22,182 nucleotides of DNA from a virus. The position numbers were made by a program, and so were the translations under genes. The notes under the pieces were generated by a model that ran no database searches, was not told the DNA's origin, and saw only the letters and a program-made list of their open reading frames with translations. Below are positions 2,870-18,795 of this stretch, in pieces. The stretch is taken from positions 1 through 22,182 of the IMG/VR virus record IMGVR_UViG_3300020467_000061. The stretch is one strand, 5' to 3'. Position 1 is the stretch's first letter. Each line of letters starts with the position of its first letter.

Positions 2870-3107
2870 TTTGACACAACGACAAATTGACCGTCTTGAT
2901 GACTACGAATACTCACTCTTTCTAGCTTATGGTGACGCATACAAACCTACACCGACAGTTTCTTCTAGAGCAAGAAGCAATCAGCTGTGGGAGGCAGAGA
3001 CTTCACGATTCTTTAGAGAAACTAGAAGGCAAATCTTACGCTTCCGCAAGCGTGTACGGGGTGTCATCAATCAAAGAGGCTATACCTTATCTAATGGAGA
3101 AGGTTGA
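2862..3107 (+). other. Overlapping ORF, possibly the original N-terminus of the RNA polymerase in a shifted frame
   Basis: An 81-codon frame starts at ATG 2862 in the same ATGNCTAA overlap used by upstream genes, and runs 179 bases into the RNA polymerase frame. Its first 25 residues (LTQRQIDRLDDYEYSLFLAYGD) look like real protein and can be laid against the start of T7 RNA polymerase, where a YGE precedes the conserved LAREQ-LE segment; beyond about base 2935 it reads as an out-of-frame shadow rich in Arg. It may be an independent short gene, or polymerase N-terminus separated by a +1 frame change. I list it as unresolved. Confidence 0.35.
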
Positions 3108-5277
3108 GCAGACTAAACATAAACTTAAAACAGGTCAAGCTGGTAAGTTTTATAAAGACATAGCTGTATACCTCGATGACTTAGAACCCCTTGCAATCTC
3201 AACCATCATACTCAAAGTTGTATTTGACAGAGTATTTAGCACACAAAGAGGAGCCAATCTAATTACTCCTACTCTTGTTGCTATTGGATCTGCGTTAGAA
3301 TCTGAGTGTAAGTTCAGATGGTATAAGACAGAGTACCCTGGATTGATGCACTACATCAGTGAAAAATACTTTCACAACGCCTGTGGTACACGACAAAAAG
3401 AGATTATCGCCAGCCAAAAGTTTGGTCAACGTGACATACGATGGACACCTTGGAGCGTCAAGGCTAAAACATCCCTCGGACGATGGGCTCTTACAGTTAT
3501 AATGGACACCACTCAATGGTTTACCATCAGCAAACGTAAGACACACCGTAAACGTTACGATTATAGGGTAATCCCTACTGATTTATTCAATTCTAGGCGA
3601 ACTGAACTAATCAAATCAGCTGAATTATTTTCTGGTATACCGTGGCCTATGCTAGTAGTACCAGATGATTGGGGTTATGATGAAGAAGGTAACATCATTT
3701 ATGGTGGATACCTCACAAATACCATGATGAAAGGTCATGATTTAACCCGCAAAGGAAACCCCACCATAATACACGGAGAAACGCCTATTAACTTCTTAAA
3801 CAAGTTACAAGCCGTGAGGTACTGTGTCAATCAGCACGTACTGCACACAGCAGAAGAGATGAGGTTGAAGGGTAGAATTATAGGTAAGTTTATACCTATA
3901 TCACCTACTACTAAACTCCCACGTCCTGCAGATGCTGATACAAACCCAGAGAGTAACCTAGCTTGGAGACGAGCTATGGCAGAATCTCACAATGCTGATC
4001 GCATAAACTTTAAACGATCAGTAAGAACACGCACACAGCTAGAAGCAGCTAACAAATTTAAAGATGATGTCTTTTATCTTTGCTGGTCTTTTGACTACAG
4101 AGGTAGAGCATACCCAATACCAGCTTTCTTGACACCTCAAGATACTGACTTTGGTAAAGCACTCTTAAGATTTGCTGATGAGGCTAGTGTGACAGATGAG
4201 GCAGAACTATGGTTATCTTTCCAAGTAGCTACAACCTACGGATTGGACAAAGAAACACTAGAGGACAGACATTTATGGGTGTCTAAAAATACTGAACTCA
4301 TCACCAAAGTTGCTACTGACCCCGTAAGACACTTGTCTTCATGGGAAGAGGTAGATGAACCTTGGCAATTCATGGCTGCTTGTCATGAGTACTACCACTG
4401 TTGTATAGCTAAAGACAAGTTAACTACTGGTCTTATGGTCGCAGTCGATGCAACCTGTTCTGGACTCCAGATACTTGCAGGTCTTGCAGCTGACAGAAGT
4501 ACAGCAGAGTTAGTAAATGTTGTCCCTAGTAACAAACCTAGTGACGCATACAAAGCGGTGGCAGAACAAGCTAAAGAGTTCTTACCAACGTACATGCACC
4601 ATTGGATTACTCGTGCCGTGTGCAAACGCACAGTTATGACAATCCCTTACAATGCTACTAAAGATAGCAGTCGCAAGTACATACGTGAATCATTACTTGA
4701 AGAAGGCATAGATCCTACAAAGGATGAGCTAACACAGATCGTCAATGCTGTTTATAACAGTATGGACACTATAGTTCCAGGGCCAATGCAAGTGATGAGA
4801 TGGATAAAGAAACATGTCGGACAGTACATCAGAAATGGTGCTACTGCAGTTGAATGGGTCACACCATCTGGTTTCATAGTTAATCAAAGAAGAGATGACA
4901 TTGAAACAATGAGGATGGAACTACAATTACTTGGTAGGACAAGTATTAGATTACCTACGGGTAAAACTACACCTAGCCCTACTAAGCATAAGTCTAGTAC
5001 TGCCCCTAATTACATTCATTCATTCGATGCTTCGATCCTTCACAGATCTTTTAATCAATTCAATGAACCATTCACAGTCATACATGACTCAGTTCTTTGC
5101 AGAGCAGGAGACATGGGAACACTCAATCGCCTTGTGCGAGAAACCTATGCCAATATCTTTTCCGAAGAAGATTGGCTCTCCAAGTTTGCAGAGACCATCA
5201 ATGCCTCTGAACCACCACCAATCGTTGGAACATTAAATCCCAAAGATGTTTCAAATTCCACCTATTTTTTCTGTTAA
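2929..5277 (+). CDS. T7-like single-subunit DNA-directed RNA polymerase
   Basis: 782 residues (T7 enzyme 883). It transcribes the phage replication and late genes from phage promoters in the host cytoplasm. Landmarks in T7 order: the N-terminal LHRQFLLEQEAISCG helix (about 7-21) aligned with T7 LAREQ-ALEHESY; DYRGRAYP (389-396) matching T7 DWRGRVY; first catalytic Asp in VAVDATCSG (D507); KRTVMTIPYN, the O-helix, with K566 and sugar-selecting Y574; second catalytic Asp in VIHDSV (H719, D720). It ends in an aromatic C-terminus (TYFFC), like the T7 foot. A TAG at 2923 blocks any longer in-frame start, so ATG 2929 is the first possible; no Shine-Dalgarno precedes it. The SSB gene follows after TAATT, with no ligase gene between as in T7. 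Confidence 0.97.
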   Translation: MVTHTNLHRQFLLEQEAISCGRQRLHDSLEKLEGKSYASASVYGVSSIKEAIPYLMEKVEQTKHKLKTGQAGKFYKDIAVYLDDLEPLAISTIILKVVFDRVFSTQRGANLITPTLVAIGSALESECKFRWYKTEYPGLMHYISEKYFHNACGTRQKEIIASQKFGQRDIRWTPWSVKAKTSLGRWALTVIMDTTQWFTISKRKTHRKRYDYRVIPTDLFNSRRTELIKSAELFSGIPWPMLVVPDDWGYDEEGNIIYGGYLTNTMMKGHDLTRKGNPTIIHGETPINFLNKLQAVRYCVNQHVLHTAEEMRLKGRIIGKFIPISPTTKLPRPADADTNPESNLAWRRAMAESHNADRINFKRSVRTRTQLEAANKFKDDVFYLCWSFDYRGRAYPIPAFLTPQDTDFGKALLRFADEASVTDEAELWLSFQVATTYGLDKETLEDRHLWVSKNTELITKVATDPVRHLSSWEEVDEPWQFMAACHEYYHCCIAKDKLTTGLMVAVDATCSGLQILAGLAADRSTAELVNVVPSNKPSDAYKAVAEQAKEFLPTYMHHWITRAVCKRTVMTIPYNATKDSSRKYIRESLLEEGIDPTKDELTQIVNAVYNSMDTIVPGPMQVMRWIKKHVGQYIRNGATAVEWVTPSGFIVNQRRDDIETMRMELQLLGRTSIRLPTGKTTPSPTKHKSSTAPNYIHSFDASILHRSFNQFNEPFTVIHDSVLCRAGDMGTLNRLVRETYANIFSEEDWLSKFAETINASEPPPIVGTLNPKDVSNSTYFFC

Positions 5278-16225: not shown

Positions 16226-17302
16226 ATGGCTGCAATTACATTATCAAAACCAAATACTAATTGGCAGGATTTTTGTAAGTGGGTAACAAGTACAGACAAC
16301 CGCCTCTACGTGGGGTGGTTCGGTGTGCTAATGATACCTTGCTTATTAACTGCTACAACATGCTTTATACTCGCCTTTATTGCTGCACCTCCTGTAGACA
16401 TAGATGGCATACGTGAACCAGTATCTGGCTCTCTACTCTATGGAAACAACATCATATCTGGAGCGGTCGTACCCTCCTCAAACGCAATCGGACTACATTT
16501 CTATCCCGTCTGGGAAGCAGCAACACTTGACGAATGGCTCTATAACGGAGGGCCATACCAGCTTATCATCTTTCACTTCCTTATCGGTGCAGCATCTTAC
16601 ATGGGACGCCAATGGGAACTTAGTTATAGACTAGGGATGAGACCTTGGATATGCGTAGCTTACTCAGCTCCAGTATCAGCTGCACTAGCAGTATTTCTTG
16701 TTTATCCTTTTGGACAAGGATCTTTTTCTGACGGTATGCCTTTAGGAATCAGTGGAACATTCAACTTCATGTTTGTCTTCCAAGCGGAGCACAACATTCT
16801 TATGCACCCCTTCCATATGCTCGGTGTTGCGGGCGTGTTTGGTGGTGCTTTGTTTGCTGCTATGCACGGAAGCCTTGTTACTTCCTCAATCCTTCGGGAG
16901 ACCACGGAAAACGTTTCACAAAACTATGGTTACAAGTTTGGTCAAGAAGAGGAGACTTATAACATTGTAGCTGCACACGGATATTTTGGTAGACTTATAT
17001 TTCAATATGCTTCTTTCAATAATTCTCGTTCTTTACATTTCTTTCTTGGTACTTTCCCCGTGGTTGGCATATGGCTCACCTCTATGGGAATCTGCACTAT
17101 GGCTTTCAACCTTAACGGATTTAATTTTAACCAGTCAATAGTTGACGCTAATGGTAAAGTTATTCCTACATGGGCTGATGTCGTTAATAGACAGAACCTT
17201 GGAATGGAAGTAATGCACGAAAGAAATGCACATAACTTCCCGTTAGACTTAGCATCTGCTGAAACTACTTCTGTAGCATTGACTGCACCTGCACTAGCCT
17301 AA
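16226..17302 (+). CDS. psbA: Photosystem II D1 protein, phage-encoded
   Basis: 358 residues, full length. D1 is the rapidly photodamaged core subunit of photosystem II; phage copies sustain electron flow during infection. Visible functional residues (this numbering is one below the standard): Tyr-Z Y160, Mn ligand D169, P680 ligand H197 in LMHPFHMLG, Mn-cluster residues H331, E332, H336 and D341, and the C-terminal processing site LDLA|SA after A343. Position 130 of standard numbering is Gln ([11 protein letters not shown]), as in D1:1-type, low-light forms. All five membrane helices are intact. The N-terminus ([15 protein letters not shown]) is divergent from host sequences. It lies between assembly genes and the capsid gene, so it is expected to be expressed late. 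Confidence 0.98.
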
Positions 17303-17311
17303 CAGCCACGT

Positions 17312-17364
17312 CCGTTCATCCCCGCAAGGGACGCATGATTCCAAAGCATGGAACGGGGCTTTGG
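17312..17364 (+). promoter_or_regulatory. Glutamine-II (downstream-peptide) riboswitch candidate
   Basis: Three pairings are seen by eye. P1: CCGTTC (17312-17317) with GAACGG (17351-17356), 6 perfect pairs. P2: TCCC (17319-17322) with GGGA (17328-17331), loop CGCAA. Pseudoknot: CCAAAG (17341-17346), inside the P1 loop, with CTTTGG (17359-17364) downstream, 6 perfect pairs, giving an H-type pseudoknot. The conserved strings CGTTCATCC, GGACGCATGA and CATGGAACGG agree with what I recall of the downstream-peptide motif, a glutamine-binding RNA found in Prochlorococcus, Synechococcus and a cyanophage, always before a short YRG-containing peptide gene. Here the ribosome site GGAG (17370-17373) and such a peptide (ATG 17380) follow immediately, so translational control by glutamine is the likely role. 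Confidence 0.8.
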
Positions 17365-17379
17365 TATATGGAGATTACC

Positions 17380-17433
17380 ATGACAGTAACTTACGTATAT
17401 CGTGGCGTTACTTACACAAAAATTGTGAAGTAA
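17380..17433 (+). CDS. 17-residue riboswitch-associated peptide
   Basis: MTVTYVYRGVTYTKIVK, with GGAG at 17370-17373, six bases before the ATG. The YRGVTY core resembles the small YRG (DUF4278-like) peptides that follow downstream-peptide riboswitches; original descriptions gave 17 codons as the lower size limit, and this example matches it. Function of these peptides is not known to me. It is too short for a statistical gene call; the support is the perfect position behind the riboswitch and ribosome site. Confidence 0.65.
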   Translation: MTVTYVYRGVTYTKIVK

Positions 17434-17439
17434 CAAAAA

Positions 17440-17531
17440 GGGGGGGGAGCACCTCAGAGTCGGACTCCCCTCTAATTGGTAAAAGCCTTCTACGGAAGAC
17501 ACCTTTTGCCGTCTGGACGGTAGGGACAGAC
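17440..17531 (+). other. Three consecutive RNA hairpins upstream of the capsid gene
   Basis: Hairpin A: eight G run with GGGGAG (17444-17449) pairing CTCCCC (17465-17470), extendable by G-U/G-C pairs to 17441/17473. Hairpin B: GGTAAAAG (17478-17485) with CTTTTGCC (17503-17510), topped by CTTC/GAAG (17487-17490, 17495-17498) closing a TACG loop, i.e. the extra-stable cUACGg tetraloop. Hairpin C: GTCTG (17511-17515) with CAGAC (17527-17531). None is followed by a T-run, so these are not standard intrinsic terminators; A could attenuate, B and C could be processing or stabilising elements for capsid mRNA, comparable in position to T7 RNase III sites. The rest of 17532-17616 holds no gene. Confidence 0.6.
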
Positions 17532-17578
17532 CTACAAACAGCTTGAGTCTTAGCTGATACATTTAAGATTCCAACAAT

Positions 17579-17590
17579 TCTAGATCTAGA
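17579..17590. repeat. 12-bp perfect palindrome before capsid gene
   Basis: TCTAGATCTAGA reads the same on both strands and lies 26 bases before the capsid start codon, in a stretch with no Shine-Dalgarno. It could be a protein-binding site, a small hairpin or part of a phage promoter region; no known consensus is matched. Confidence 0.4.
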
Positions 17591-17616
17591 GACGATACAT
17601 ATAACCTTACAAAATA

Positions 17617-18795
17617 ATGGCACAACAGTCAACAAGCAGTCCTAGCTCACAAACCTTTCTGGGTAGGATTGGTAATAATGCGTCACAGGACGCAACGAAC
17701 AACAGAGACCTCTATTTAAAGTTGTTCTCAGGTGAGATGTTTACTGGCTTCCAAAGAGAGACAATCGCAAGAGATCTCGTTATGAAGCGTACACTCACAA
17801 ACGGAAAGAGTTTACAGTTCATCTATACTGGACGTACAAGTGCGGAATACCACACTCCTGGCAACAGTATATTAGGAAACTCTGACGGAGCTCCACCAGT
17901 AGCAGAAAAAACAATTACAGTTGATGACTTACTCATCAGTTCTGCATTTGTTTACGAGCTGGATGAAACATTGGCTCACTACGAATTGAGAGGAGAGATC
18001 TCCAAGAAGATCGGTTATGCTCTTGCACAAAAATATGATAGACTAATCTTTAGAGCTATCGCTAAAGGTGCTAGACAGGCTTCTCCTATTTCAAAAACTG
18101 GTTTCATCGAGCCAGGTGGTACACAAATCCAAGTTGGTGCAGGTTCTGACGCTGACGATGCTCTTGATGATGGTCATCTTGTAACAGCATTTTATGATGC
18201 TGCTGCAGCTCTTGACGAAAAAGGAGTTTCTGATGATGGTCGGGTTGCCGTACTAAACCCTAGACAGTACTACGCACTTATAAAAGGTGCTGGTAATAAC
18301 GGTCTAATTAACAGAGACGTACAAGGTACAGCTCTTCAGTCTGGTAACGGAGTAATTGAAATTGCAGGTATTCAAATCTACAAATCAATGAACGTTCCAT
18401 TCTTCTCTAAGTATGGTACAAAATATGCACCTACAAGTGGAACACCAGACGCTGGTACTGACCTAGCTACAGGTGATCCTGGAAATACAGGTTCATTCGT
18501 ATCTGAGCCAATCGAAACAGCAAATACAGTTACAGGTGACAACTATGGCCCACGCCAGAACTACGGTGCTGCCTCTAACTTTGCAAACACATGTGGACTT
18601 ATCTTCCAAAGAGAAGCAGCAGGTGTTGTAGAAACAATAGGCCCACAGGTACAAGTAACTAGTGGAGACGTTTCAGTGGTATACCAAGGCGATGTCATCC
18701 TAGGACGCATGGCTATGGGTGCGGATTACGTTAACCCTGCAGCTTGTGTAGAATTGTTTGCAGGAACAACAAGTGCTCCTACAGCTTTCTCATAA
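17617..18795 (+). CDS. Major capsid protein, gp10-like
   Basis: 392 residues (T7 gp10A 345). Builds the icosahedral shell with the HK97 fold. Recognised by the podovirus capsid layout: LYLKLFSGEMFTGFQRETIARDLVMKRTLTNGKSLQFIYTG (N-arm and E-loop region), ITVDDLLISSAFVYELDETLAHYELRGEISKKIGYALAQKYDR spine helix, and RVAVLNPRQYYALI, then IEIAGIQIYKS near the A-domain. Extra length is in a central and late Gly/Thr-rich loop (GTPDAGTDLATGDPGNTG). No Shine-Dalgarno before ATG 17617; the long structured leader suggests separate post-transcriptional control. A strong intrinsic terminator follows, as in T7 after gene 10. Confidence 0.96.
   Translation: MAQQSTSSPSSQTFLGRIGNNASQDATNNRDLYLKLFSGEMFTGFQRETIARDLVMKRTLTNGKSLQFIYTGRTSAEYHTPGNSILGNSDGAPPVAEKTITVDDLLISSAFVYELDETLAHYELRGEISKKIGYALAQKYDRLIFRAIAKGARQASPISKTGFIEPGGTQIQVGAGSDADDALDDGHLVTAFYDAAAALDEKGVSDDGRVAVLNPRQYYALIKGAGNNGLINRDVQGTALQSGNGVIEIAGIQIYKSMNVPFFSKYGTKYAPTSGTPDAGTDLATGDPGNTGSFVSEPIETANTVTGDNYGPRQNYGAASNFANTCGLIFQREAAGVVETIGPQVQVTSGDVSVVYQGDVILGRMAMGADYVNPAACVELFAGTTSAPTAFS

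Follow-up and report, generated by a model that had tools for sequence, protein, structure and literature searches.

A glutamine-II riboswitch and a predicted single-YRG micropeptide before the capsid gene of T7-like cyanophages

Introduction

The type-2 glutamine riboswitch is described as an element of ON direction that is linked to DUF4278 genes and controls the following ORF in its hosts (review PMC6316151), and the host RNA has been proposed to free an occluded ribosome site (PMC6698751). In Synechocystis, IF17 (gifB) stands under a type-1 glutamine riboswitch (PMC6316151). For phages, the literature mentions glutamine riboswitches of T4-like cyanophages and of phage Melnitz (PMC9602691, PMC9964418, PMC9004378).

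In the literature searched we found no report on a glutamine riboswitch in T7-like cyanophages, nor on the phage peptide described below. The phages used as models for infection of the most abundant photosynthetic cells include P-SSP7 and its relatives; the production of virions is expected to be limited by the nitrogen status of the host. Here we analyse a window of 22,182 nucleotides (positions 1 to 22,182 of IMG/VR virus record IMGVR_UViG_3300020467_000061), which encodes a T7-like RNA polymerase at 2929-5277. A sequence-only reading had placed a downstream-peptide (Glutamine-II) RNA and a 17-codon peptide between psbA and the capsid gene, and had suggested either nitrogen-dependent control in the late region or a host psbA-linked cassette carried along.

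Results

Aptamer identity and architecture

The aptamer consists of the following parts (window coordinates):
17310..17365, plus strand: Glutamine-II (type-2 glutamine) riboswitch aptamer (RF01704, 49.2 bits, cut-off 33, E 2.2e-9)
17312..17317, plus strand: 5' strand of the pseudoknot (PK) helix, CCGUUC, partner 17351-17356
17319..17331, plus strand: P1 hairpin UCCC-CGCAA-GGGA, U17319-C17322 with G17328-A17331
17341..17364, plus strand: P2, enclosing the PK 3' strand, CCAAAGC 17341-17347 with GCUUUGG 17358-17364
17351..17356, plus strand: PK helix 3' strand, GAACGG, partner 17312-17317

The Rfam covariance model confirms the proposed RNA class, with a match that spans the full model (1-60; cmscan, E computed over the window) and exceeds the Rfam gathering score of 33 bits. 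No Rfam family besides RF01704 appears in 17200-17700, even at E<=5. The type-1 glutamine model, RF01739 (glnA), which had also been put forward for comparison, has no match in the window, and the 16 T7-like records tested are likewise free of matches at E<=0.001.

The helices P1, P2 and PK lie at the positions given to them by the sequence-only reading, with one refinement at the sixth PK pair. In the crystal structure this pair is the long-range C19:G41 (PMC6698751), which in the numbering of that structure maps to C17334:G17356 here and not to C17312:G17356. The ligand-site set compared, C1:G40, G2:C39, G18, C19:G41, A33:G42 and G35 (PMC6698751), is found in full, as C17313:G17355, G17314:C17354, G17333, C17334:G17356, A17348:G17357 and G17350.

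Across 131 distinct phage aptamers, the P1 pairs are kept in 95-100% with compensatory types seen, and the P2 pairs in 93-100% with numerous two-sided changes. The PK strands were fixed by the search pattern in this set; in Cyanophage SS120-1, found by Rfam alone, a change in the PK is compensated (CGUUU/AAACG). A missing model match, or P1 and PK pairs broken without compensation in homologous phages, had been named as what would speak against the RNA; we observe the match, covariation of P1 and P2, and the compensated PK of SS120-1. These comparisons show an aptamer that belongs to RF01704 and whose predicted helices are maintained through compensatory change.

Distribution and genomic place

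Searches of whole records find exactly one RF01704 copy above the cut-off in 19 of 22 T7-like cyanophage records, P-SSP7 included, and the matched region recurs in P-SSP7, P-GSP1, P-SSP2, P-SSP3, P-SSP10, NATL2A-133, 9515-10a and others. Whole-record searches of S-B28 and the freshwater phage S-SRP01 gave no riboswitch copy. S-SBP1 retains the 3' half of the aptamer and has lost the 5' half, with the peptide ORF MSINLIRFLASQKKRAERYHTDALRYRGVVYKEID intact (locus L091 2120-2195). Six T4-like phages yield type-2 matches that are weak at best (22-29 bits), and their type-1 scores are higher.

Loci from IMG/VR were gathered in two independent ways, by capsid similarity and by a pattern for the RNA alone. 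A capsid gene lies downstream in 98 of the 119 loci retrieved by the RNA pattern alone; of the remainder, 17 end within 1.2 kb and four show 1.2-3 kb without a capsid gene. The pair of aptamer and peptide thus looks like a near-universal, standard part of T7-like cyanophage genomes as far as the sampled sequences go, and not like a chance passenger.

Its neighbours in the window are as follows:
16226..17302, plus strand: psbA (PSII D1), upstream (PF00124, E 2.2e-88; stop 17300-17302)
17617..18795, plus strand: major capsid protein gp10, T7-like, downstream (PF21703, E 1.8e-71)

The pair recurs behind psbA in related phages, and its recurrence does not depend on psbA. In 128 loci psbA lies within 1.5 kb upstream of the aptamer. 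Another 39 loci show more than 1.5 kb of upstream sequence from which psbA is absent; 28 of them have the capsid gene downstream, and in psbA-less loci the pair stays between the scaffold and capsid genes. Where extra genes have been inserted, for example in NATL2A-133 and P-SSP10, the aptamer is near psbA and the distance from peptide to capsid gene exceeds 1 kb. Sequence comparison therefore shows one copy per genome with a fixed place within the scaffold-psbA-capsid interval, and since psbA is dispensable and inserted genes separate the peptide from the capsid gene, the element, by its arrangement in these genomes, is physically joined to neither neighbour.

In the T4-like cyanophage P-RSM4 (L387 1268-1428), a 99-nt hypothetical ORF lies between psbA and a gene annotated as the major head subunit precursor; P-TIM40 (L383) has a similar small ORF after psbA.

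The predicted YRG micropeptide

The sequence-only reading was right about the ribosome site and the 17-codon ORF, both of which are present in the sequence:
17370..17373, plus strand: Shine-Dalgarno GGAG, 6 nt before AUG 17380
17380..17433, plus strand: YRG micropeptide ORF, 17 codons, MTVTYVYRGVTYTKIVK (a YRG ORF occupies this place in 187 of 192 phage loci)

In those 187 of the 192 aptamer-bearing phage loci, the ORF has 13-73 residues (nearly all 13-42) and a single YRG motif, and its AUG sits 22-30 nt past the PK strand, with one exception at 49. Random positions in the same loci gave a comparable ORF in 39 of 9,350 trials. The contig end cuts four of the five aptamer loci without a YRG ORF. 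In MedDCM-OCT-S04-C24 (L089 1850-1970) the aptamer is intact and YRG is missing from the ORF (MSDLEKRYIINAYNKCSARRRK), possibly through a frameshift or sequencing error.

Among 107 distinct core sequences, pN/pS is 0.36 around YRG, and the 17-residue class has 0.41 in frame versus 0.91 out of frame. YRG was part of the selection criterion, and its invariance is no independent evidence. The tyrosine five residues past the YRG tyrosine was not a selection criterion; it is invariant in 107 of 107 sequences, with both Tyr codons used. The substitution pattern and the control trials show the aptamer to be coupled to a one-YRG ORF whose amino-acid sequence is under selection.

Phage ORFs of greater length, mostly 32-42 aa, have an additional N-terminal segment, for example M-x-x-ELQARIKEQ. 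Several of these longer peptides match DUF4278 (PF14105) over the C-terminal part of the domain alone, at 14.7-20.1 bits, and because these matches fall below the Pfam gathering cut-off of 25.3 we do not class the phage peptide as a DUF4278 member. The window peptide, searched as 21 aa from an in-frame upstream start, has no PF14105 match and no significant Pfam match; in the same form it matches the PHROG 5049 profile at E 0.0091, and one relative does so at E 2.7e-5. We know of no glutamine-synthetase inactivating activity of the phage peptide. It is unannotated in most of the annotated records consulted and a 'hypothetical protein' in some. The last peptide codons of the window (17407-17433) form a second hairpin, GUUACUU...AAGUAAC, which includes the stop codon.

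Among the host-family genomes, 92 of 151 have the riboswitch, in up to nine scattered copies per genome. The highest-scoring of the host copies examined precede ORFs of 33-58 aa in which YRG/YRR is repeated two or three times, for instance MTLTYRGQKYVQNKETAKKQHLELTYRGKSYTS. It is the last of the host repeats, YRGVxYTK, that the phage peptide resembles. Another group of host copies is followed by a different, unrelated-looking ORF of about 56 aa (MNNLLQIREKI... / MNELS). Several host copies (L110, L114, L115 and other Prochlorococcus loci) have an extra CGTTCA shortly before the aptamer's own CGTTCA; this could possibly be a decoy 5' PK strand.

A predicted hairpin between the leader and the YRG codons

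Beyond the aptamer, the leader can pair with the coding sequence of the peptide:
17357..17406, plus strand: proposed expression platform hairpin, 17358-17378 (P2 3' strand, leader, GGAG) with codons 17386-17406

In this layout the stem contains GGAG, the loop contains the AUG, and the pairing partner is formed by the peptide codons up to YRG. In 25 distinct sequences of equal length, 92.9% of the cells of the 18-pair hairpin are paired, and seven pairs have two-sided changes, amounting to 37 such cells; shuffled columns gave 83.6% paired and 10.6 two-sided cells, and slid versions at most 45.1%. The alignment behind these figures (A1) omitted three of 28 equal-length leaders, which are in shifted register, and counts were also made with all 28. 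The clearest covariation is synonymous: a change of the Val codon from GUA to GUU is accompanied by a leader change from U to A or from U to G, and GAUUAC...GUAAC alternates with GAUAAC...GUUAC across the strands of the hairpin.

Measured against synonymous recoding, the duplex of leader and YRG codons has a mean z of -1.77 in 75 short-class sequences and -2.03 in 18 ELQAR-class sequences. The same measure gives no pairing signal in 31 host loci (z +0.26/-0.29) or in the phage LEKR/INLIRF ORF groups (z -0.04). Pairing of coding sequences with their own leaders reaches -12.7 kcal/mol, versus -9.1 with leaders swapped between phages, and a swap between the two short subclasses weakens it from -14.4 to -8.1 kcal/mol. 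Co-variation, partly synonymous, shows that the complementarity of the leader and ribosome site to the YRG codons is conserved in the aligned phages. A hairpin predicted from the peptide's own codons is, by this comparison, phage-specific and new, and the literature searched contained no earlier report of it.

The RNA block at the capsid gene

Two further structured elements separate the peptide from the capsid gene:
17440..17475, plus strand: hairpin with a CACCUCAGAGUCGGA loop, preceding the capsid-leader block; other phages have a T-arm-like hairpin at this place
17476..17539, plus strand: conserved structured capsid-leader block, no Rfam match; also, for example, in P-SSP7 (AY939843.2 20682-20746)

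The block comprises an outer stem, within it a hairpin that frequently carries a UACG cap, the near-palindrome CCGTCTAGACGG and a hairpin around GGATAGAC. It precedes the capsid gene in 157 of 169 loci. Of 16 T7-like cyanophages tested, 14 have the block in a single copy per genome, among them the riboswitch-less S-B28 and S-SRP01. We considered and rejected its identity with a known RNA, given the lack of an Rfam match, as well as a promoter repeated along the genome, given that a search with its model yields a single copy per genome and a single strong match within the window. A motif search of the window returned chance-level matches and missed the real site through a one-base difference in length, and RNAalifold predicted only a poor structure from a MAFFT alignment of the block, whose stems are of unequal length. 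The capsid message could be processed or initiated at the block, and the 3' part of the block (GGGAUAGACCACA) is similar to the start of T7 phi10 transcripts.

The hairpin before the block has two forms, one resembling a tRNA T-arm (83 loci) and one with a CACCTCAGAGTCGGA loop (69 loci). No intact tRNA was found in the window; among the loci scanned, NATL1A-7 alone has a complete tRNA-Gly(TCC) before the block (L097 5641-5711). The T-arm-like hairpins and this tRNA-Gly suggest a tRNA-like punctuation of the late message.

Discussion

What could be the role of a glutamine sensor in this place? Glutamine control of late-region expression, one of the two possibilities first raised, remains the best reading of the element on the sequence evidence, with the qualification that its immediate target is the peptide; nothing links the riboswitch to control of the capsid gene itself. 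We consider it probable that, in the late region of T7-like cyanophages, translation of the small YRG peptide is controlled by a phage type-2 glutamine riboswitch. The intact peptide of S-SBP1, retained despite the half-lost aptamer, counts in favour of this reading. When glutamine is scarce, the long hairpin would form, capture the 3' strand of P2 and bury GGAG. Binding of glutamine would fix the PK and P2 and shorten the hairpin, making the ribosome site easier to open, and the peptide would be made when nitrogen is plentiful, as in the ON switch that the type-2 element is reported to be in hosts (PMC6316151). Because the P2 3' strand contributes to five of the 18 hairpin pairs, P2 and the full hairpin are mutually exclusive. 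Nearest-neighbour modelling with the aptamer and P2 blocked gives a weaker hairpin, of about -10 kcal/mol in P-SSP7 and P-GSP1, but a ribosome site that is still mostly paired: its mean unpaired probability rises from 0.36 to only 0.43 for the short class and is unchanged for the long class. Since equilibrium folding shows no release of the ribosome site, we dropped it as proof of switching and put forward the link from ligand to ribosome site as a proposal; P2 could even stack on the hairpin.

The same folding result favours another explanation, in which the micropeptide is made constitutively, the Shine-Dalgarno hairpin serves as its constitutive brake or as an mRNA-stability element, and either the aptamer acts elsewhere or glutamine is answered through a different alternative fold; the overlap with P2, limited to those five pairs, points the same way. 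However, the aptamer ends directly at the base of the hairpin, the distance between PK and AUG hardly varies, and host type-2 elements control the ORF that follows (PMC6316151), so that we regard this explanation as unlikely. It is also conceivable that the ORF is a regulatory leader whose translation, and not its product, affects the capsid message through coupling, RNA stability or processing. Such a role would agree with a downstream capsid gene in almost every phage, with a hairpin formed by the codons themselves and with the very short ORFs, but it is at odds with the amino-acid selection (pN/pS 0.36-0.41), with an invariant second tyrosine encoded by either codon, with the other genes that keep peptide and capsid gene more than 1 kb apart in several genomes, and with the separate conserved RNA block that already sits at the capsid gene. 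We hold this role to be quite improbable.

The remaining explanation, that of a host cassette acquired with psbA and without a function of its own, draws on the aptamer beginning within about 17 nt of the end of psbA in many phages. It fails because the pair remains before the capsid gene where psbA is absent. The scattered host copies precede ORFs that differ from those of phages, in repeat number among other things, and the long-term conservation, together with a phage-specific hairpin, is likewise contrary to a mere passenger. We rejected the cassette, to which we would give hardly any credence.

Less surely, the peptide may correspond to a single repeat of the YRG (DUF4278-like) proteins with which hosts respond to nitrogen, and might act on the same host partner as these proteins, tuning nitrogen assimilation to virion production. 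More tentatively, we hypothesize that the glutamine-gated micropeptide mimics a single YRG repeat of host DUF4278-like proteins, interfering with or replacing them in late infection, and that its YRG codons double as a mask of the ribosome site in a riboswitch form invented by phages. A near-universal glutamine sensor and a mostly unannotated peptide by the capsid gene provide a testable handle on how these phages read nitrogen, and in the peptide the YRG proteins of marine picocyanobacteria have a minimal counterpart with a single repeat.

The element shares with RF01704 the model score, P1, PK and P2, the conserved CGCA linker, the A33/G35 positions and a short downstream ORF, and differs in a proposed expression platform built from the peptide's YRG codons, in its fixed place before the capsid gene and in its single copy per genome. 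With the type-2 ORFs of its hosts (yfr6-like, DUF4278/YRG proteins of marine picocyanobacteria) it has in common the RNA class, the distance to the AUG and the YRG-x-x-Y motif; the host ORFs, however, have two or three YRG/YRR repeats or are of the MNNLL/MNELS kind, whereas the phage ORFs carry one YRG. The likeness to IF17 (gifB) lies in a glutamine riboswitch governing a small DUF4278-related nitrogen-control protein (PMC6316151), but there the aptamer is of type 1 and the protein is a complete glutamine-synthetase inactivating factor, and the phage peptide is far shorter. T4-like cyanophages and Melnitz likewise carry glutamine sensors (PMC9602691, PMC9964418, PMC9004378), yet the T4-like records tested are weak for type 2 (22-29 bits) and score higher for type 1, and the riboswitch of Melnitz is a glnA-like element at ssrA. 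The RNA class and the glutamine riboswitches of other phages were thus already known; what is new is the coupled single-YRG micropeptide, the phage-specific hairpin made of its codons, and the near-universal, capsid-linked and psbA-independent place of the element in T7-like cyanophages.
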